Positions 509 to 13,395 of a DNA stretch of 64,000 nt are shown here, in pieces. The stretch comes from Cyanobacteria bacterium FACHB-502 (GTDB taxonomy: Bacteria > Cyanobacteriota > Cyanobacteriia > Elainellales > Elainellaceae), in assembly GCA_014695325.1 (NCBI GenBank), contig JACJNZ010000039.1, forward strand, positions 744,001 through 808,000. The letters run 5' to 3'. The translations under genes and the position numbers were made by a program. The notes below the pieces were generated by a model, which was not told where the DNA came from, searched no databases, and saw only the letters and a list, made by a program, of their open reading frames with translations. The first letter of the stretch is position 1; every line of letters begins with the position of its first letter.

Positions 509-1324
509 TTATTCTGACCAGTTTGTGACGATCAGCGTTTGCAGCAGTTTATCTGCGCTCGCCAAATCTCCCACAATCCGCCGTACTGGGCGGGGCCAGA
601 CTCTCACTAATGTCGGCGTTGCTGCAATTTGGTCTGCTTCTGCCAGTTCAGGATGACGGTGAATATCGACAATTTTGAGCGTGTACGATCGCTGAAGCAT
701 TTGGTCTAAAAGTTGATGCAGTTCCTTGAGAATGCGTTCGGTTCCCAGCGTGGCGCCTGAGACAAACAAACGAAAGACATAACCTTGAGTTGGGGCGATC
801 GGCTCAGCAGGTGACCAGGACAGGGTCGGTCCGTCAGTTTGAGGGGGCGTGAGCAGCTTGGCTTTCTCAAATCGCACCAGCAGGTCGTGATCTTCCCAAA
901 GCTGTGGAAACGGTTTGCGGTAGGTTTGCAGCACGATCGGGTCACACAGTTCTTCAGGGCAGGGGGCAGCGTCCCAAACCACATCGTTTACGCCAAACAG
1001 GGCGTTTAAGAGCGATCGATGCCGCAACACAAACGGAGACGCTTCTGCAAAGGTGCGAACGGTTTGGCTTTGAGAATCAAACCAGCGATCGATCGTGGCG
1101 GTATAGGCAGGTACGAGAAAATGAGGCGGTTCCGGTAGACCTAGCATTTCTTGCAGCACGGCACAAAGCTGCAAATGCCAGTAACTCTGCTTTTTGGTAT
1201 CAATGCAATACACCAGATCACCGCCTGGCGTAAAAAGCGCGATGCCCTTAAATAAAGCAGTTTCCAGAGAATTGGACTGGAGCGGATGAGTGCGATTTTG
1301 ATCACTCATAATGGCGAAAGCCAT
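509..1324 (-). CDS. Two-domain protein with C-terminal KaiB domain
   Basis: 271 residues. The last third (about 181-265) is a KaiB/SasA-type thioredoxin-like domain: YVFRLFVSG aligns with the first strand of KaiB. The region HPELAEADQIAATPTLV and the later RRIVGDL match the conserved KaiB segment with its cis-proline strand and IGDL end. Residues 1-170 form a separate domain I do not recognise, containing GIALFTPGGDLVYCID near the start. It is not clock KaiB itself, which is about 100 residues, nor SasA, since there is no kinase module and the KaiB domain is C-terminal. A role in KaiC or redox interaction is inference only. An alternative start is the Met at 1309; neither start has a good ribosome site. 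It converges on furA. Confidence 0.8.
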   Translation of the reverse strand: MAFAIMSDQNRTHPLQSNSLETALFKGIALFTPGGDLVYCIDTKKQSYWHLQLCAVLQEMLGLPEPPHFLVPAYTATIDRWFDSQSQTVRTFAEASPFVLRHRSLLNALFGVNDVVWDAAPCPEELCDPIVLQTYRKPFPQLWEDHDLLVRFEKAKLLTPPQTDGPTLSWSPAEPIAPTQGYVFRLFVSGATLGTERILKELHQLLDQMLQRSYTLKIVDIHRHPELAEADQIAATPTLVRVWPRPVRRIVGDLASADKLLQTLIVTNWSE

Positions 1325-2048: not shown

Positions 2049-2807
2049 CTAATCGGGTGAGTCTGAAATGGATTGTCTTGTTCCATCCGGTAGGATTGCG
2101 CCTGTCCAATCCACATGGGTGAGGATTGCGCCGGTTAAATCTGCTCCTTTTAGATCGGCATCGCGCAAAATTGCTCCGGTTAAATCAGCATAGCTAAGGT
2201 CGGCATAGCGCAGGCTGGCTCCACTCAAATCCGTTGCCGCAACGCTCTGCTGCGGTTCTTGCGGCATTGTGCTTTGCGCTAATCGGCTCTGGAGCTGGGC
2301 ACGGCAGAGTTTGGCGCGATCGAGGTTTGCCCCGGTCAGAATCGTCCCGCTGAGCTGGGCATAGCTTAAGTCTGCCTCGGTTAACCTTGCCTGACTGAGA
2401 TCGGTAATTTGGTCGGCAGGAGGGCGAAAATCAGCCTCAAATAAATTCGCATCCCTGAGATCTGCTGCAATCAGACTTGCTCCCCCAAAGCTGGCTTTAC
2501 ACAAAATTGCCGATCGAAGGCTTGCCCGCTCTAGCTTTGCACCGCTCAAATCTGCTTCTCGCAAAATCGCCTCATCCAGGTTTGCTTCTGTCAGAATTGT
2601 TCCCCAAAGCAGGGCTTCGCTGAGGTTTGCCCGCCGCAGACTGGCATTGTGCAGATTGGTTTTTCCTAGACGCGCTTGTCGCAAATCCGCCTCACTGAAG
2701 TCGATCTTTGCCAGGTCTAGATTCAGCAGATCTATTTCGCGCAAAGTGAATCGCCGGAAGTCCCTTGTGCCGGTGGTGTATTGCTGAAGGATAGCTTCGG
2801 GGGTCAT
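2049..2807 (-). CDS. Pentapeptide-repeat protein
   Basis: 252 residues, made almost entirely of A(D/N)LXX-type pentapeptide repeats from about residue 25 to 240 (for example ADLSGAKLERASL), the signature of a right-handed quadrilateral beta-helix. There is a short interruption around residues 168-192 with a Gln/Ser-rich loop (SRLAQSTMPQEPQQS). No signal peptide or membrane segment is visible, so it is probably cytoplasmic. Cyanobacteria have many such proteins, mostly of unknown function; a few bind gyrase or act in transport and thylakoid biogenesis. The sequence does not point to any of these. The gene stands alone, 138 bp downstream of the photoreceptor kinase on the same strand. Confidence 0.9.
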   Translation of the reverse strand: MTPEAILQQYTTGTRDFRRFTLREIDLLNLDLAKIDFSEADLRQARLGKTNLHNASLRRANLSEALLWGTILTEANLDEAILREADLSGAKLERASLRSAILCKASFGGASLIAADLRDANLFEADFRPPADQITDLSQARLTEADLSYAQLSGTILTGANLDRAKLCRAQLQSRLAQSTMPQEPQQSVAATDLSGASLRYADLSYADLTGAILRDADLKGADLTGAILTHVDWTGAILPDGTRQSISDSPD

Positions 2808-2945: not shown

Positions 2946-5375
2946 TCAAGCGTTTGTTACTTGTAGATCGAGTGGGACGGTGAGCAGGAATGTGGTGTGA
3001 CGATTGCCGCTTTTGATTTGAATTGTTGCGTCTAATCGCTGCACCAGTCTTTTGACGAGTGCCAGTCCTAGCCCCACGCCGCTATATTTCCAGGGATCAT
3101 GGTTGGGGATGCGGTAGAACTTGTCAAAAATTCGCGTTTGCTCGTCGGGGGGAATTTCAACGCCTGAATTGCAGACGCTGATCTGAAGGGCCGGTCCGTC
3201 AAGCAGTTGACTCACTGAGAGGGCGATCGTCTCATGGGGGGGAGTGTATTTGCAGGCATTATCGAGCAGTTCGGTGACGATGCGTTCTAGATCAGTCAGG
3301 TCGGTTGTGAGCGGGGGCAGGCGATGCGAAGCACTTCCCTCAGGGTGGTCGGGAATGTGTAGCTCCAGGGTTTGCTGATGTCTCTGGGCACGCTCGATAA
3401 AGGGCTCAGCAACATAGCGAATCCAGCTTCCCGGATCGATCGTAGTCAGCAGCAGGGGTTCAGTATTGGCATCTAGCCGCGACAGGTCGAGCAAATCGTC
3501 AATTAGATTAATCTCTCGATGGGTTTCTTGCTTCAAGATTTCAAAATGGCGATCGATCGCTGTGCCTTCGCCCAAAAGCTGCAATTGGTGCAAATGGATT
3601 TCTAGCAGTTCGGCTGCCATTTTGATATTGGCAACAGGCGTTCGCAGCTCGTGGGAAATAGTGCTGAGAAAATCATCTTTCAGGTAGTTAAGGCGTTCTA
3701 GCTCTATCACCTGAGCTTGGGCAGCCTGGTAGAGACGGGCTTGACGAATGGCGATCGCACACTGATTAGCGACCTGCTGCACCAGTCGAATTTCCTGTTC
3801 TTCGTAAACTCCATCGCTCTCTTTGTACAGCCACAGATCTCCCAAAACGCCCTGGTCATCAATAATTGGGCAAGCCAGTACCACAAACTGATTAGCGAGT
3901 GCCCGAACCGGAGAACCTATTACATAAATGGCGTTGTGCCAGCAAAATTGGAGATATTCTCCGCGTAAAAGCGGCTGATAGTATTCTGGAAATCCTTCGA
4001 CCGACACAATTCTGCCCTGGGCGACGGGAACCGTGCCTTGAATGTATTCGTAGGCGATCGTCGAGAGCTGGTGCTGATGGCTATAGATTCCCGTATCGCA
4101 GCTTGAGATTCCCATTGCCAGGGTCAGTTCTCGTACAGCAGTCTGCAAAATTTGCGCTTCATCAAGGCTATCGCGCACTTTGTCTGTAATTCGCTTAAGC
4201 GTTGCCTCAAACTCAAATGCCTGTTGAAGCTGAGCAGTGCGCTGCTGCACCTGGAACTCCAGGGTTGTATTAAGCTGGCTAACCTGCTGATACAGCTCCG
4301 ATTGCTGAATCGCGACGGCAACCTGACACGCAAGCTGGATGAGCAAGGAAACATCCTCCTGCTGCCACTGACGCGAGGCATCACACTGGTGGGCGATTAA
4401 AAGCCCCCACAAACGGTTCTGCTGGGGAAGAAGCTGGGCATGATTTTGCAAATCAGGTTGTAGGTTATTTTGCAGAATGGGGACAACTAGATTTGCCCGG
4501 ACGTTAAGCTGAACGAGCAATTCTCGATAGCACGGGTGCAAATCTGCCCGATCAATGTCTTCAATCTGGTGAATCCGTCCTTCTAAATACGGCTCATGCC
4601 ATAAATGCTTAAAGCAGGGGTCGTAGATTTTGCGATACAGAATTGAGGAGCAGCCCGGACGCACCGACTCAACAACCACCTGCCCGTTCCAATCGGGAGC
4701 GAACTGAAAAATCACCACCCGATCGCTTTGCAAAAAGTCCCGTACCTCTTCCACTGTAGTTTCCAGGACTTTACTCAAGTCGAGCGTCTGCCGAATTCGC
4801 TGGCTGATTGTCGTTAAGAGCCGCTCTCGTTCGAGCCTCTGCTGTACCAATTTTGCCGAGGGCTGGGGCTGTAGCGGTTCGAGCTGTAATTGGGTTGCAC
4901 TGCCATAAAGCAAACCATCTTTCCCCAGCACAAACCGCCAGGAAAAACGTCGCTCGCTTCCGTCGGCATGGCGCATCCGAGTTTCAAACTGGCAGTGGGG
5001 CTGAGGCGGCAGCGAATGCAGGAGCGATCGAAACTGGGACTGAGTTGCAAAAACATCCTCAGGATGAACCAGATCGAACCAGTTCTGCTGCTTTAACCCC
5101 TGCACACTCCATCCCATTACCGCTTGCCAGTCAGGACAGAGCAGGACAATCTTGAGCAAGTCACTCTGCCGCAGACCATCAGGCAGGGCGATCGGGTGTG
5201 GGGAAGCCGTTTCTTTTGCAGAGTTATCTTTTGCGGGGTGATTGGGCTGTAAAACACACAGCAGCAAAGTACCCAGCCCGAAGAAGGACTGAAGCTGGCT
5301 CTGAGTTTTAGCAAATTGATGCAGTAAGCCTTCTAGATCAGTAAATTGTTCGATCGTCATCCAGCCCGCAGACAT
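2946..5375 (-). CDS. PAS-GAF-GAF histidine kinase with DXCF-type cyanobacteriochrome GAF
   Basis: 809-residue sensor kinase with no membrane segment. Order: PAS (about 65-165), first GAF (183-360), coiled linker, second GAF (388-550), HisKA with phospho-acceptor H575 in SHELRTP, and HATPase with N706 in LLDNACKY and the G-box GVGLGLALV (766-774). The first GAF carries both hallmarks of a DXCF cyanobacteriochrome: D252-P-C254-F255, and C282 followed by Y283 in HPCYRELL, at the bilin-anchoring position before VRANLVVPIL. Such GAFs usually bind phycocyanobilin or phycoviolobilin through two thioethers and sense blue to green light. The second GAF lacks these cysteines. A response regulator and a permease lie just upstream on the same strand, 111 bp away, suggesting one unit. 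Kinase function is clear; bilin binding is inferred from the motifs. Confidence 0.88.
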   Translation of the reverse strand: MSAGWMTIEQFTDLEGLLHQFAKTQSQLQSFFGLGTLLLCVLQPNHPAKDNSAKETASPHPIALPDGLRQSDLLKIVLLCPDWQAVMGWSVQGLKQQNWFDLVHPEDVFATQSQFRSLLHSLPPQPHCQFETRMRHADGSERRFSWRFVLGKDGLLYGSATQLQLEPLQPQPSAKLVQQRLERERLLTTISQRIRQTLDLSKVLETTVEEVRDFLQSDRVVIFQFAPDWNGQVVVESVRPGCSSILYRKIYDPCFKHLWHEPYLEGRIHQIEDIDRADLHPCYRELLVQLNVRANLVVPILQNNLQPDLQNHAQLLPQQNRLWGLLIAHQCDASRQWQQEDVSLLIQLACQVAVAIQQSELYQQVSQLNTTLEFQVQQRTAQLQQAFEFEATLKRITDKVRDSLDEAQILQTAVRELTLAMGISSCDTGIYSHQHQLSTIAYEYIQGTVPVAQGRIVSVEGFPEYYQPLLRGEYLQFCWHNAIYVIGSPVRALANQFVVLACPIIDDQGVLGDLWLYKESDGVYEEQEIRLVQQVANQCAIAIRQARLYQAAQAQVIELERLNYLKDDFLSTISHELRTPVANIKMAAELLEIHLHQLQLLGEGTAIDRHFEILKQETHREINLIDDLLDLSRLDANTEPLLLTTIDPGSWIRYVAEPFIERAQRHQQTLELHIPDHPEGSASHRLPPLTTDLTDLERIVTELLDNACKYTPPHETIALSVSQLLDGPALQISVCNSGVEIPPDEQTRIFDKFYRIPNHDPWKYSGVGLGLALVKRLVQRLDATIQIKSGNRHTTFLLTVPLDLQVTNA

Positions 5376-5486
5376 TAAGATCCCAGATTTAGCTTACTTT
5401 ACCTTAAAGGTCCTCCTTATAGCAGCAAGCCGCATAAAAGCAATCCCACTATGGATAGAGAGTAGAGAATAAACGGGAGCATGATG

Positions 5487-6128
5487 CTAGGGTTTGGGCG
5501 GCTGTAACCACTGCTGAAGTCCACTAAAGCCAATTTCTGCCAGCAGAGCCAGCAGCGCAACGGGAATGGCTCCGACCAGCAAAATTCCACTGTCGTAGAG
5601 GGAAAATCCTCGCACAATAAAGGTTCCCAGTCCGCCTGCCCCAATAAATGCCGCAAGCGTAGCACTGGCAATCACTTCAACTAGCGCAGTTTTGATTCCC
5701 GCCACAATTCCGGGCAACGCCAAGGGCACTTCAACCCGACGCAACACCTGCGAACCGCTCATGCCCATGCCTGCTGCCGCTTCCCGCACTAGAGGATCGA
5801 TCGTCCGAAACGCCACGTCTGTATTAATCAAAATGGGCGGCATTGCCAGCAGCGTCAGGGCGATCGTTGCAGAGCGAAAACTCAGCCCAAAATAGGGAAT
5901 TGCCAGAAACAGAACTGCAATGCTGGGAATCACGCGCAGGGCATTAAAACCGTTGATAAAGGCAGTGGCGGCTAAACGCGAGCGAGAACTCCACCAGCCC
6001 AGCGGCAAACCCAGCCCTAAGCCGATCGCCATCGGCACCAGCACCAGCAGCAAATGTTGCCCAAATGCCTCAACCAATTCCTGCCCGTGTTCGATCGCAT
6101 AGGCCCATGCCTGCCCTAAAACCTCCAT
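5487..6128 (-). CDS. Osmoprotectant-type ABC transporter permease
   Basis: 213 residues, a single-module membrane permease of the OpuBB/OpuCB/YehW type (glycine betaine, carnitine, choline). About five to six hydrophobic segments are visible. The EAA-like cytoplasmic loop is REAAAGMGMSGSQVLRRVEVPLAL in outline (about 134-157), followed by LPGIVAGIKTALVEVIASATLAAFIGAGGLG in outline, typical of this family. No ATPase, partner permease or binding protein is adjacent, so it is an orphan here; its partners must be elsewhere, or it serves another role. The start lies 14 bp after the response regulator stop, so the two are co-transcribed. The photoreceptor kinase follows 111 bp further on. Confidence 0.85.
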   Translation of the reverse strand: MEVLGQAWAYAIEHGQELVEAFGQHLLLVLVPMAIGLGLGLPLGWWSSRSRLAATAFINGFNALRVIPSIAVLFLAIPYFGLSFRSATIALTLLAMPPILINTDVAFRTIDPLVREAAAGMGMSGSQVLRRVEVPLALPGIVAGIKTALVEVIASATLAAFIGAGGLGTFIVRGFSLYDSGILLVGAIPVALLALLAEIGFSGLQQWLQPPKP

Positions 6129-6142
6129 GTGCCCGAATTCCG

Positions 6143-6850
6143 CTAGCTGGTTACATCTTCAAACTTGTAGCCCACACCGATTACCGTTTTCAGAAACGTG
6201 GGATTCGCCGGATCAGGCTCAATCTTCTTTCGTAAACGGGCAACGTGCGTATCCACCACGCGCTCATCGCCAAAGAAATCACTGCCCCAGAGTTTCTCAA
6301 TGAGCTGAGTTCGATTCCAAACGCGACCGGGATGGCTCATAAAGGTGGTGAGCAAGTCAAACTCCAGCGTTGTCAGGTCTAGGGTTTCGCTGCTGTGATC
6401 GTCTAGCTGACGGTGAGCCACCCGCTGATCCACATCGGCAGAAAAGTGAGGTGTTTGATAAGCGCGGGTTTGTCCACCCTGCCGCAAGGTACGCCGCAGC
6501 AGTGCTCGCACTCGTGCCACCAGTTCTCTGGGGCTAAACGGCTTGACCAGATAGTCATCTGCGCCCGTAGAGAGTCCGATGATGCGATCGATTTCTTCCC
6601 CTTTTGCCGTCAGCATCAGAATATAGGGGTCTTTGTTTCCAGGCTTCTGCCGAATGCGAGCGCAAACCTCCAGCCCATCCAACCCAGGCAGCATCAAATC
6701 CAGCACAATCAAATCAGGCTGCTGTTCCTGGAAAACCTGAAGCGCGGTCAACCCATCCCGGCAAATCCGGCAGGTAAAGCCTTCCTTTTCCAGATAGAGC
6801 TGAATCAGCTGAGCAATTTCTGCTTCATCCTCAATAATTAGGATTTCCAT
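6143..6850 (-). CDS. OmpR/PhoB-family response regulator
   Basis: 235 residues. The receiver domain covers 1-118, with acidic pocket EDE (7-9), phosphorylated D51, T81 and K103 (LVKPFSPREL). A winged-helix DNA-binding domain covers about 130-232 (LTTLEFDLL, VVDTHVARLRKKIE, VIGVGYKFE). It should act as a phosphorylation-controlled transcription factor. It is first in a leftward set with the permease (14-bp gap) and the DXCF-type kinase, its most likely partner by position. A 15-bp tandem repeat at 6902-6931, about 50 bp upstream of the ATG, could be its own binding site. Which named cyanobacterial regulator it is orthologous to cannot be told by eye. Confidence 0.92.
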   Translation of the reverse strand: MEILIIEDEAEIAQLIQLYLEKEGFTCRICRDGLTALQVFQEQQPDLIVLDLMLPGLDGLEVCARIRQKPGNKDPYILMLTAKGEEIDRIIGLSTGADDYLVKPFSPRELVARVRALLRRTLRQGGQTRAYQTPHFSADVDQRVAHRQLDDHSSETLDLTTLEFDLLTTFMSHPGRVWNRTQLIEKLWGSDFFGDERVVDTHVARLRKKIEPDPANPTFLKTVIGVGYKFEDVTS

Positions 6851-7294
6851 AGGAACCGATCGACCCCGTGTTTGAAATGGTGAATCTGATGTTTCGCGAT
6901 CGTTTTAATTAATACCGTTTTAACTAATAAGGGCAATTGAGCAGTCGCAGCAATCCGACATCGCCCCCTAAACTTCCCATCCCATAGGAACTTAGAAAAT
7001 CCCCAGAGAGCGAGGTTCCCCTTAATAAGGAAACAAACGGTTCGGGTCGCATTTAAGACTTCTCAAACAGCCTTTTAGACCTTGCCTTGCCAGAATCATT
7101 TCTATCCTAATCGCTGGCTGCATAAACAGCGACACCCCCGCTTCGGGCAAGTTCAGCTCATCATCGCTCTATCAGCTCTGGAATGTAAAACAACCTTCTC
7201 AACCATCCCTCCTCCCCCATTTCCCCGATCTCCAGCAAAACTTAGCCCCCCTATCCCCCTCATCCGCCCCTCATCCGCCCCTTTCTTTACCCCA
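6851..7294. other. Divergent intergenic region
   Basis: Separates the leftward response regulator from the rightward deacetylase. It holds the 15-bp tandem repeat at 6902-6931 and, from about 7195 to 7290, a strongly C-rich stretch of short CCCC runs directly before the deacetylase start. An ORF extending the deacetylase upstream to 7082 passes through this C-rich stretch and gives a Pro-rich, unconserved-looking leader, so I treat it as non-coding. Confidence 0.6.
6902..6931. promoter_or_regulatory. Tandem 15-bp repeat, candidate operator
   Basis: CGTTTTAATTAATAC (6902-6916) is followed immediately by CGTTTTAACTAATAA (6917-6931), two mismatches apart. OmpR-family regulators bind direct repeats, and this pair lies about 50 bp upstream of an OmpR-family gene. 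The 15-bp period is longer than the usual 10-11 bp, so the assignment is tentative. Confidence 0.4.
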
Positions 7295-8209
7295 ATGGAT
7301 CTCCCCATCGTCTACCATCCCCACTACGTCGCCCCCCTTCCCCCCGGACACCGCTTCCCAATGCAAAAATTTCGGCTGCTCTACGAGACGCTGTTAGCCG
7401 ATAACGTTGCCCATCCTTCCCAATTTCACGCGCCCAACCTGCCGCCGATCGACTGGATTGAAACCGTACACACGCCCCAATACGTGCAGGCCTACCGGGA
7501 GGGAACCCTTGACCCTAAAACGCAGCGTCGGATCGGTCTGCCCTGGAGTCCAGAACTGGTGAATCGCACCTGTATTGCAGTCAGCGGCACAATTCTCACA
7601 GCGCGGCTGGCCTTGCAGCATGGATTAGCCTGCCAGACCGCAGGCGGAACCCATCACGCTTTCCCCAACTATGGCTCTGGATTTTGCATTTTTAACGATT
7701 TGGCGATCGCCGCACGAGTCTTGCTTCGGGAAAATCTAGTGCAGAAAATTCTGATTGTCGATCTGGATGTGCATCAGGGCGACGGCACGGCTTTTATCTT
7801 CCAAGACGATCCGCGGGTGTTCACTTTCTCAATGCACTGCGGTGTTAACTTCCCCGGCACAAAGCAGCAGAGTGATCTGGATGTGCCCCTACCTGAAGGC
7901 ATGGAGGACGATGAGTATCTGCAAACCCTGGCAGCCTATTTGCCCGATCTGCTCTCGCAGGTGCAGCCCGATCTGGTGTTTTACGACGCGGGCGTAGATG
8001 TGCATCTGGGCGATCGGCTGGGGAAGCTGGCACTGAGCGATCGAGGGGTGTTTTGTCGCGAGATGCAGGTTTTAAGCACCTGTCTATCGCTGGGCTATCC
8101 GGTCGCTTGTGTGATCGGCGGCGGCTATGCGGAAGACATGAATGCATTGGTGTATCGGCATTCGCTGCTACATCGGGCGGCGGGGGATGTGTATCGGCAG
8201 TACGGGTAG
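7295..8209 (+). CDS. Histone deacetylase-family (AcuC-like) hydrolase
   Basis: 304 residues from the chosen ATG, the usual length for bacterial arginase/deacetylase-fold enzymes that remove acetyl or related acyl groups from lysines, polyamines or small amides. Visible active-site elements are the double histidine in GGTHHAF (H120, H121) and the zinc ligands in VDLDVHQGDGT (D156, D158, H160). The third metal aspartate lies in YDAGVDVHLGD near residue 231, and the GGGY loop near the C-terminus. The longer ORF from 7082 would add 71 Pro-rich residues encoded by a C-rich tract, so the start MDLPIVYHPH is preferred. The substrate cannot be assigned. Confidence 0.9.
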   Translation: MDLPIVYHPHYVAPLPPGHRFPMQKFRLLYETLLADNVAHPSQFHAPNLPPIDWIETVHTPQYVQAYREGTLDPKTQRRIGLPWSPELVNRTCIAVSGTILTARLALQHGLACQTAGGTHHAFPNYGSGFCIFNDLAIAARVLLRENLVQKILIVDLDVHQGDGTAFIFQDDPRVFTFSMHCGVNFPGTKQQSDLDVPLPEGMEDDEYLQTLAAYLPDLLSQVQPDLVFYDAGVDVHLGDRLGKLALSDRGVFCREMQVLSTCLSLGYPVACVIGGGYAEDMNALVYRHSLLHRAAGDVYRQYG

Positions 8210-10363: not shown

Positions 10364-12595
10364 ATGGCGAAAAAACAAGATATTCGCGCTTCCATCAGAA
10401 AAGCTTTGGCTGCTGATGATGCCATTCATAACACTTCTGCAAATGACTCGTTTGGTCAGGTTTTAGACCGTGCCCGGATAGGGCGACGGGGCTTTTTGAA
10501 GGGCAGTTCGTCCCTAGCAGCAGCCTCAATGCTCGGTATGGGATTGGCATTTCTGGGTGATTCGGTCAAGCGCCAGGGGCAAGCGGCTAAAGCTGCATCA
10601 GGTCTTACCCTGAGTTTCAAGCCTGTTGCCAAAAACATCGCTGACACCCTCACGGTTCCCGAAGGTTACACTGCCAAAGTTCTACTTGCTACAGGCGATC
10701 CGCTCAAAAGCAACGTGACCCCCTACAAAAATGACGGAACTGATAACGACTTTGATGTGCGGGCAGGCGATCATCATGATGGCTTACATTACTTTGGCCT
10801 GAGACAGGACGGCAATGGTTGGGACCCGAGCAACAGCGATCGTGCTCTGCTTTGCATCAACCATGAAGTCTGCGAAGACCTGGGCTTTGTGCATCCCAAC
10901 GGACCCACTGATTATGGTCCAGAAAGTACCGCAGCTCGTCCGCCGATCGAGATTGATAAGGAAGTCGCTGCTCATGGCGTCAGCGTGGTTGAGATTGCCA
11001 GACAGGGTACAACTTATCAGATCAACCGTGATTCGCAATACAACCGCCGGATTACAGCAGCAAGTGTTTTCGAGATTTCTGGTCCTGCCCGTCGCAACCC
11101 CATGATGGCTACCGCATTTTCTCCCAGCGGTGAGCAGACCCGGGGCACCTTAAACAACTGCGGTCATGGCTATACACCCTGGGGCACGTACCTCAGCGGC
11201 GAGGAAAACTGGGCGGGGTATTTCCATCGTCGAGAAGAAGATTCCGTCCTGAATGCAAAAGAATTAGCATCCTTTAAACGCTACGGCGTCAGCAATGACA
11301 CCTCAGGTCGCTACAACTGGTCGCGGGCGGGCGCATCCGATAACATCGATCTCTACCGTCGCTGGGATGCAAGCAAGACGGGCAGCAGTGCCGACCAGGA
11401 TTTTCGCAATGTTGCAAATACCTTCGGCTGGGTGGTGGAAATTGACCCGTTTAACCCCAACGCCACCCCCAAAAAGCGGACTGCTCTGGGCCGTATGGCT
11501 CACGAGGGAGCCTGGTCTGCCAGAGTCGTTGCGGGTCAACCCCTCGTTTTTTATATGGGGGATGACGCACGCAACGAATACATCTACAAGTTTGTTTCTG
11601 CTGCCAAGTGGGACCCCCGAGACGCATCAGGTGGTATAGCAGCAGGAGATAAGTACCTGGATGCAGGCACACTGTATGTTGCGAAGTTTAACGATGATGG
11701 GACGGGAGAATGGTTGCCCCTTACCCTGAACAATCCCAACATTGCCAATGATGCAAACTATGCCTTTGCTGATGAAGCTGATGTGTTGATCAATGCCCGC
11801 CTTGCCGCTGATGCAGCCGGAGCAACCAAGATGGATCGCCCGGAGTGGGGTGGAGTCAACCCAGGCAACGGGGAGGTTTACTTTACCCTGACCAATAGTG
11901 TGTCGAGCAGCAGCGGTCGGGGGGTAAAAACACCGCTTGATGCTGCCAATCCTCGCTACTATGCCGATGCCAAAGAGGACGAAACAGCCCAGGGCAATGT
12001 CAACGGTCACATTATTCGCTGGCGTGAGTCTAACAGTAATCCTGCGGCTGCCACGTTTAACTGGGATGTTTACCTCTTTGGTTCGCAAGCCGATGCCGGG
12101 TCAGATATTAATCTGTCCGGTCTGACCAATGAGAATGATTTCTCTAGCCCAGACGGTATCTGGTTTAGCGAGTCAGTCCCGGGTTTACTGTGGATTCAAA
12201 CGGATGATGGCTACTACACCGATGCCACCAACTGTATGATGCTGGCTGCGTTGCCGGGGTCAGTCGGAGACGGAACCGAAAAAATGGTGGCTAACAAGGC
12301 AGTGCCTCTCAACGCGAATGCGGATCAGATGGTCAAAACCTATGTGGGCCAGTCTGCCAGCCCAACCGTGCTGCGTCGTTTTCTGGTGGGTCCGCGTGAC
12401 TGCGAAATCACGGGCATCACTGAATCGCCCGACGGCAGAGCGATTTTCGTCAATATTCAGCATCCAGGCGAAAATAGCAAGTCCCCCACTGACCCGACTC
12501 AGTTCACAAGCCACTGGCCGGATGGCGGCAATGCCCGTCCTCGATCGGCTACGGTGATGATCACACGCAACGACGGCGGCATAATTGCGAGCTAA
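10364..12595 (+). CDS. phoX: PhoX-family alkaline phosphatase (DUF839), Tat-exported
   Basis: 743 residues from the ATG at 10364; an in-frame GTG at 10328 would add 12. A twin-arginine signal is clear: RRGFLKGS at about 42-49 followed by a hydrophobic stretch with Met/Ala/Leu, so the folded enzyme goes to the periplasm or outside. Conserved PhoX segments follow in order: LCINHEVCED, GYTPWGTYLSGEENW, AHEGAW, YMGDDARNEYIYKF, RPEWGGVNP and GPRDCEITGITESPDGR. Family enzymes use iron and calcium and release phosphate from monoesters under phosphate starvation. No convincing cyanobacterial Pho box (TTAACC-type direct repeats) is seen upstream; only a hairpin AAAGGG/CCCTTT near 10285-10305. A good terminator follows at 12811. 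Confidence 0.93.
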   Translation: MAKKQDIRASIRKALAADDAIHNTSANDSFGQVLDRARIGRRGFLKGSSSLAAASMLGMGLAFLGDSVKRQGQAAKAASGLTLSFKPVAKNIADTLTVPEGYTAKVLLATGDPLKSNVTPYKNDGTDNDFDVRAGDHHDGLHYFGLRQDGNGWDPSNSDRALLCINHEVCEDLGFVHPNGPTDYGPESTAARPPIEIDKEVAAHGVSVVEIARQGTTYQINRDSQYNRRITAASVFEISGPARRNPMMATAFSPSGEQTRGTLNNCGHGYTPWGTYLSGEENWAGYFHRREEDSVLNAKELASFKRYGVSNDTSGRYNWSRAGASDNIDLYRRWDASKTGSSADQDFRNVANTFGWVVEIDPFNPNATPKKRTALGRMAHEGAWSARVVAGQPLVFYMGDDARNEYIYKFVSAAKWDPRDASGGIAAGDKYLDAGTLYVAKFNDDGTGEWLPLTLNNPNIANDANYAFADEADVLINARLAADAAGATKMDRPEWGGVNPGNGEVYFTLTNSVSSSSGRGVKTPLDAANPRYYADAKEDETAQGNVNGHIIRWRESNSNPAAATFNWDVYLFGSQADAGSDINLSGLTNENDFSSPDGIWFSESVPGLLWIQTDDGYYTDATNCMMLAALPGSVGDGTEKMVANKAVPLNANADQMVKTYVGQSASPTVLRRFLVGPRDCEITGITESPDGRAIFVNIQHPGENSKSPTDPTQFTSHWPDGGNARPRSATVMITRNDGGIIAS

Positions 12596-12645
12596 GAGGA
12601 TGCTTGAGCAGTAGATGTTTGAGCAGTAAAAGTTGCTACCAAACT

Positions 12646-12725
12646 GCCCCCTAAATCGGTCAACTTTAGGAGACTTTGAACCGGAGAGTTGGCTCAGAAG
12701 TTTCCTAAAATTGGGGGCTGGGGGC
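12646..12725. repeat. Dispersed CCCCCTAAATC repeat, degenerate copy
   Basis: Starts with GCCCCCTAAATC, continues through AGACTTTGAACC and ends CCTAAAATTGGGGGCTGGGG, so the ends are inverted relative to each other. It resembles the copy at 56835-56872 and a repeat type that is common between genes of filamentous cyanobacteria. Internal positions have decayed. Confidence 0.7.
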
Positions 12726-12810
12726 AAATGCAGGACATCGGACGCTTTTCAAACATCCTTTAAGCTGCGTTAACCCAACGCCAGTCAACCTAATCATGAG
12801 CAACTTGAGG

Positions 12811-12846
12811 AGAGCCTAGACTATTGTTAGGCTCTTTCTTTTTACT
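12811..12846 (+). terminator. Intrinsic terminator after phoX
   Basis: AGAGCCTA (12811-12818) pairs with TAGGCTCT (12828-12835) around a 9-nt loop and is followed by TTCTTTTT. It lies about 215 bp after the phoX stop, so the phoX message has a long 3' tail including the repeat. Confidence 0.8.
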
Positions 12847-13395
12847 CTTGGCTAATTCTCTTTGCTAGTTCTCTTTGTCGCCTAACATTCAGCATCGATC
12901 GCTGGTGTGCCCAAGCTGGAACCGATCGATAGATCAATTAGGAAGTTCAGCGATCGTACCTACACTGAGAAATATTATTGGGGAATATTGAGGCACAGTG
13001 CAGAAGCCAGAACAGCCAATCAGCAGGCAGCCCGAACTCAAGAGCTAGGCACAATTACCTAGAAATATGCGATGATAACAGAACGTTATTTCGCAACCTG
13101 TGACCGATCGATGCAAAAGTTAATCACTGTGCAAGTTTTCCGCCATTTAGTTGTAGTTTCTTATACGACTGTTAAAATTAGATAAGAGAACCAAACATTC
13201 AATACCTCAGTATCGAGCATTCCGAATCAGGCGAACTGCGTGCGGTAATCTCACTGTAAGCATTCAGGGCAGTTGCTTGATTTTCAATGATTCCAAGGAT
13301 TCATCTGAATCAATTTGGCTGCATTCGCAGCTCAAGCTCTTCCCATTTGCGACAGAGAGGCATAGCAAGGCGTGATTCACTCTTCATTCAGTCAG

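Follow-up and report, generated by a model that had tools for sequence, protein, structure and literature searches.

A three-gene block in a cyanobacterium suggests a recurring pairing of an importer permease with a histidine kinase, here by sequence of the cyanobacteriochrome type

Introduction

Four kinds of described system bear on a block of three genes in Cyanobacteria bacterium FACHB-502 (GTDB order Elainellales), located in a 64,000-nucleotide stretch of contig JACJNZ010000039.1 (positions 744,001 to 808,000, assembly GCA_014695325.1) that we call the window. The block encodes an OmpR-family response regulator (RR), a permease subunit of an ATP-binding cassette (ABC) importer (PERM1) and a histidine kinase with a candidate bilin-binding GAF domain. 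The kinase recalls the DXCF cyanobacteriochromes, a subgroup characterized, according to PMC4223177, by an Asp-Xaa-Cys-Phe motif and a second bilin linkage at C10. In TePixJ, a member of this subgroup, the attachment cysteines are C494 and C522, 28 residues apart, as given in PMC6955287. The permease recalls the OpuC and YehZYXW (OsmF) importers, which combine two small permeases with an OpuAC-type binding protein and a ProV-like ATPase, and the regulator recalls the BaeSR and MtrAB two-component systems. The Bce-type modules, in which kinases are coupled to transporters, provide a fourth comparison.

The window kinase resembles TePixJ and Tlr0924/SesA in its D-x-C-F GAF domain, in the canonical cysteine 28 residues after the motif cysteine, and in the gapless alignment with TePixJ. 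Unlike these proteins, the window protein, known here from its sequence, has a histidine kinase output, a PAS_3 domain in front, a second GAF domain and a Tyr after the canonical cysteine. The importer of the window genome has the same four components as OpuC and YehZYXW, but its genes lie in three places rather than in the usual cluster, and its NCBIfam scores are under the cut-offs. As with BaeSR and MtrAB, the RR matched the MtrA and PhoB models best, and its frequent neighbour kinase matched those of WalK, MtrB and BaeS; these scores fell under the equivalog cut-offs, however, and in the window genome the RR is separated from its BaeS-like kinase. Like BceRS-BceAB, the block has the gene of a kinase next to that of a transporter permease. 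The window permease belongs to another family, though, and to an importer; the case is known here from its genes, and contact between the two proteins would be proposed only by analogy.

We hold with moderate confidence that the block is operon-like and has two loyalties: the permease and the kinase would form a unit, with the kinase a cyanobacteriochrome and the importer completed in trans, and the RR would belong with a separate BaeS-like kinase. The sensor and the importer are each of known kinds, and the recurring permease-kinase pairing is the pattern reported here. This view corrects two natural misreadings of the locus, one as an orphan permease and the other as a dedicated light two-component pair. 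In their place stands a permease-kinase pairing that recurs in two cyanobacterial lineages far apart from each other; the light-sensing domain is present in some of the kinases and missing from others. Should the pairing prove functional, the import of a solute would be connected with light signalling.

Results and Discussion

The kinase as a predicted cyanobacteriochrome

The RR, permease and kinase genes are consecutive on the minus strand of the window and run in the same direction, separated by gaps of 14 bp and 111 bp (Table 1). A sequence-only reading made before this analysis had described three leftward genes with these gaps, a DPCF motif at residues 252-255 of the kinase and a cysteine at 282; the coordinates and the motif were exact. 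The top solved-structure matches of the first GAF domain (GAF1) were 6oap, 8k9o, miRFP670nano and RcaE. When the search was confined to 60 residues around both cysteines, the best phmmer matches were 6p58, 4fof, 2m7u and 3vv4, which aligned without gaps, DPCF on DPCF and Cys on Cys. We take 4fof, 2m7u and 3vv4 to be TePixJ structures. The entry 6UPP, listed by the structure search with the same sequence as 6p58, is assigned to TePixJ in PMC6955287. The spacing from Cys254 to Cys282 is 28 residues, as in TePixJ. Shuffling the GAF stretch 100,000 times gave a D.CF motif followed by a cysteine at the observed distance in 11 cases.

Both cysteines are retained in the window kinase and in three permease-linked orthologues (DPCF in three of these four proteins, DPCL in that of genome G024), with GAF identity down to 53%. 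In the same comparison, many of the more distant paralogues were without one or both cysteines. The window genome encodes one bilin reductase, which scored over the cut-off of the equivalog model for PcyA (phycocyanobilin:ferredoxin oxidoreductase). A membrane domain was absent among the Pfam matches of the kinase, and no transmembrane prediction was run. A structure of GAF1 predicted from a two-row alignment had a mean predicted local distance difference test (pLDDT) score of 54 and was too poor for use. Taken at sequence level, the kinase is a DXCF-type cyanobacteriochrome histidine kinase and apparently soluble. The sequence supports the earlier reading of such a kinase together with an RR and a permease in a block on one strand: GAF relatedness, the DPCF motif and an in-register Cys282 were all found. 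The motif by itself does not specify a blue/green photocycle, which the earlier reading had given for DXCF cyanobacteriochromes. GAF1 would bind phycocyanobilin at Cys282, with Cys254 providing a second, light-breakable linkage, and light would then alter the HisKA/HATPase activity of the protein.

The permease and its importer

PERM1 had its best NCBIfam match with ProW, far under the model cut-off. It carries the EAA(3)G(9) pattern of the EAA loop, which marks the permeases of ABC importers, and the loop is intact from E116. A PERM1 match was found in all 36 genomes of the order (in broken pieces in G006 and G019), and identity across 18 aligned relatives was 69-85%. Of the 36 loci in the order, 19 encode a further permease (PERM2) on the opposite strand within 2 kb, facing PERM1. 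All four importer genes are present at two of these 36 loci (L064 and L065), with the binding protein, the ATPase and PERM2 all facing PERM1. The four genes form a one-direction operon, in the order PERM1, binding protein, ATPase, PERM2, at 31 of 80 named loci (kept from 180 relatives found), all in Chloroflexota as judged by their record titles. As a separate observation, the importer cluster facing PERM1 at the Hormoscilla loci L119, L122 and L125 has two tandem binding-protein matches.

The sequence-only reading had taken PERM1 to be without an ATPase and a binding protein of its own. Both are missing only from the block: the window genome encodes an OpuAC-type binding protein and a ProV-like ATPase side by side on another contig (G000:C52), and PERM2 on the window's own contig about 320 kb away (G000:C34:1070889), so that the importer genes lie in three places. 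The binding protein was found in 35 of the order's 36 genomes. Its gene is distant from PERM1 in G029 and G030, both single-contig genomes, and close to PERM1 only in G015 and G027. The sequences indicate that PERM1 is one of two permease subunits of a four-gene OpuC/Yeh-type small-molecule importer, and it would assemble in trans with the binding protein, ATPase and PERM2 encoded elsewhere. The best NCBIfam models for the importer proteins were OsmF, ProV and ProW/choline permease. Every match shown was under its curated cut-off (169.6 against 400 for OsmF), so "osmoprotectant" is a family-level guess and we do not assign a substrate.

Conservation of the permease-kinase pair

The three-gene order of RR, permease and kinase was found in three of the 36 genomes of the order, namely the window genome, G026 and G003. 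A fourth genome, G024, has the permease-kinase pair, with the RR on another contig. At L051, L052 and L061 the contig stops no more than 360 bp from the permease, and these loci are uninformative on linkage. Conservation of the three-gene order in relatives, a check named in the earlier reading, therefore held in G026 and G003, but the order is confined to 3/36 genomes and the permease-kinase pair to 4/36. Seven genes flanking the block in the window were sought within 9 kb on each side at the other linked loci. None was present in G026 or G024; in G003 three were found, plus a fourth weakly. The permease-kinase pair has thus outlived its surroundings in two of the three cases.

We built a tree of 86 kinase rows, comprising the best match from each of 30 genomes of the order (six of the 36 are missing: G006, G008, G012, G014, G019 and G033), 20 hand-picked paralogues (three from the window genome, six each from G026 and G003, three from G035 and two from G024), 30 matches from a distant genus, g25 (five of them copies of linked rows), and six linked g25 rows. 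The four linked kinases of the order formed one clade with support 99/97 and no unlinked row inside it. With the five duplicate rows removed, the tree required two changes of the linked/unlinked label. The paralogue search behind the tree scored 28 candidates per genome among the matches listed, and further members of the linked clade may exist.

These results bear on a simpler explanation, in which a kinase gene landed behind PERM1 by chance and the order has not yet decayed, with no functional tie. The small number of linked genomes in the order would suit it, as would the abundance of such kinases, of which the window genome alone gave 179 first-look candidates and, among the 28 scored, at least five at E <= 1e-90. 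Against it, the permease-kinase pair persists in G026 and G024 with all seven tested flanking genes absent within about 9 kb, and a second kinase clade occupies the same place in the g25 genomes described next. We regard a coincidental neighbourhood as unlikely but credible.

A second permease-kinase case in g25

In a sample of 290 genomes, six g25 genomes had a PERM1 match, and in all six a same-strand kinase gene lies 12-40 bp behind PERM1 (loci L189, L196, L199, L202, L203 and L205). The g25 group is probably the hot-spring Thermostichus group. In the two kinases scanned (L202 and L189), the N-terminus has a dCache match under the cut-off and a PAS domain, followed by GAF domains. The bilin-type cysteines vary: L202 keeps both (as DPCL and PCH), L199 has lost both, and the kinases of L189, L196 and L203 are without the first GAF. 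The L205 gene is broken in frame and was left out of the cysteine count. None of the six genomes has an RR match above 48% identity.

The six linked g25 kinases formed a clade of their own with support 100/100, apart from that of the window kinase. Forcing all ten linked kinases together cost 35.75 log units in a quick tree, with a p-value from the approximately unbiased test (p-AU) of 0.0504. A single common origin of both linked clades was considered and set aside on the separate tree placement; at this p-AU, only borderline against it, one old origin of the pairing is disfavoured short of rejection. We favour two origins of the permease-kinase pairing, as the sequences stand.

The recurrence of pairs with differing sensory N-termini (PAS plus cyanobacteriochrome in the window; weak dCache plus PAS, with or without a bilin-type GAF, in g25) would also be expected if contact with PERM1 informed the kinase of the importer's state, light being an added input in some lineages, by analogy with the Bce-type modules. 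Pfam recognises no membrane domain in the window kinase, however, and the same kind of PERM1 occurs in many genomes without the pairing. We consider such permease-coupled sensing very unlikely.

The response regulator and its likely partner

The RR has a much wider distribution than the linked kinase. Orthologues were found in 34/36 genomes of the order (the remaining two, G002 and G019, are incomplete), and within the class 127 of 242 genomes had a match at E <= 1e-85. The RR lies upstream of PERM1, on the same strand and within about 340 bp, at 11/36 loci of the order (the RR gene is damaged in frame or start in G011 and G006, and locus L043 is cut off upstream), versus none of the 40 loci outside it. 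Among 20 loci where the RR is located elsewhere, a BaeS/MtrB-like membrane kinase gene stands directly behind it in five (L301 ends shortly after the RR), and by coordinates G021 is a sixth genome with this arrangement. The BaeS-like kinase is itself present in 34 of the 36 genomes (as a partial match in G009 and G018), including the window genome (G000:C14:40767-41864). Second copies of the RR adjoin second copies of this kinase in G011, G027 and G029, and in G020 a second RR gene is placed divergently next to a weaker relative.

The alpha-1 helix of a response regulator makes the main contact with its kinase. In this RR, nothing in the alpha-1 helix set the kinase-linked genomes apart (the stretch is missing from two of the 28 unlinked rows). 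Considering the spread of the RR, its adjacency to the BaeS-like kinase, the paired second copies and the unchanged alpha-1 helix, we regard the BaeS-like kinase as the RR's partner by default, and most likely its main kinase. This partnership is compatible with cross-talk, which may occur, between the RR and the light kinase.

The sequence-only reading leads instead to one dedicated light pathway, in which the cyanobacteriochrome kinase would phosphorylate the adjacent RR and the RR would control the permease gene. The same-strand arrangement of the three genes, with its 14-bp and 111-bp gaps, speaks for it, and so does the block in G003 and in G026, where none of the tested flanking genes accompanies it. 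Yet the RR occurs in 34/36 genomes, independent of a linked kinase clade found in four, and has another conserved, BaeS-like partner that is present in the window genome as well; its alpha-1 helix shows no matching change; and in G024 permease and kinase are still together but the RR is on another contig. The description of a photoreceptor kinase "and its regulator" was not borne out, and we judge the dedicated pathway improbable. The RR would be a neighbour of the pair and may regulate the block, and we do not assign it to the light sensor as a target. Identity of this RR with OrrA, the osmotic-stress regulator of Nostoc, was rejected; OrrA is of the LuxR family according to PMC13131328, and the window RR is of the OmpR family.

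Two further RR loci deserve record. In G026, of the same genus, an inverted RR fragment (L041, 7453-7698; residues 8-89, 93% identical) precedes the intact copy by about 0.9 kb. In G013, another GAF kinase and regulator, 28-38% identical to those of the window, lie beside the conserved RR, 2-4.3 kb upstream of PERM1 (L054, about 11450-13306).

Weighing the two-loyalty reading

Several observations count against an operon-like block whose core is the permease and a cyanobacteriochrome kinase. Linkage was found in only 4/36 genomes of the order (contig ends intervene in three others) and at 6/40 loci outside it, all in one genus. The joint grouping of the two linked kinase clades was only borderline rejected. 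Promoter and terminator patterns at the block stayed within shuffled expectation (1 versus 3.2 and 6 versus 5.0, respectively). Finally, the canonical Cys282 is followed by Tyr283, where TePixJ has His523. We do not take this residue as defining; miRFP670nano, a protein built on a cyanobacteriochrome, likewise has CYR.

With these points set against the pairs described above, the two-loyalty reading is the one we retain. The recurring unit is most likely the permease plus the kinase, and light sensing its variable part. The amounts of sensor and importer would be coupled, and the cell would thereby sense conditions while taking up the solute. A bolder version, which we rate as quite improbable, makes PERM1 a partner of histidine kinases recruited probably twice in cyanobacteria, once with a cyanobacteriochrome that was always kept; solute uptake (or osmotic state) and light would then be read by one kinase, bound to the importer or matched to it in amount. 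The permease-kinase pairing was named in no title or abstract start of the literature searched, a scope that leaves most subscription journals outside.

Features and neighbours of the block

Table 1. Coordinates of the three-gene block and of the kinase domains in the window
Feature	Position	Strand	Basis
OmpR-family response regulator (RR), 235 aa	6143..6850	-	Pfam Response_reg and Trans_reg_C (receiver with D51, winged helix)
PERM1, predicted permease subunit of OpuC/Yeh-type (OsmF-like) ABC importer, 213 aa	5487..6128	-	Pfam BPD_transp_1
Predicted cyanobacteriochrome histidine kinase, 809 aa, PAS_3-GAF1-GAF2-HisKA-HATPase_c	2946..5375	-	Pfam and solved-structure matches
PAS_3, kinase residues 81-149	4929..5135	-	Pfam
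GAF1, candidate bilin-binding, kinase residues 199-356	4308..4781	-	Pfam GAF; cyanobacteriochrome structure matches
DPCF motif, kinase residues 252-255 (Cys254 codon 4614-4616)	4611..4622	-	Alignment to TePixJ entries
Cys282, candidate canonical bilin-attachment cysteine, then Tyr instead of His	4530..4532	-	Alignment
GAF2 region, kinase residues ~371-545	3741..4265	-	GAF_2 match 493-543; borders hand-set
HisKA, kinase residues 566-636, phosphoacceptor His575	3468..3680	-	Pfam
HATPase_c, kinase residues 692-803	2967..3302	-	Pfam

The 111-bp gap between the permease and kinase genes contains an open reading frame for a hydrophobic peptide of 21 amino acids. We took it as a chance occurrence; by eye, no lookalike was seen among the hydrophobic small open reading frames listed behind PERM1 at 75 other loci.

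Further neighbours lie on both sides of the block. A 271-amino-acid protein is encoded at window positions 509-1324 (minus strand). Its KaiB domain is restricted to the C-terminus (residues 185-263), the roughly 180 preceding residues have no Pfam match, and its scores are under the KaiB equivalog cut-offs. The next gene downstream of the kinase (2049-2807, minus strand) encodes a pentapeptide-repeat protein that scored above the HetL model cut-off. Divergent from the RR gene, a histone-deacetylase-family protein is encoded at 7082-8209 (plus strand), and a gene of this family is also near the RR at L044, L073, L287, L293 and L294.

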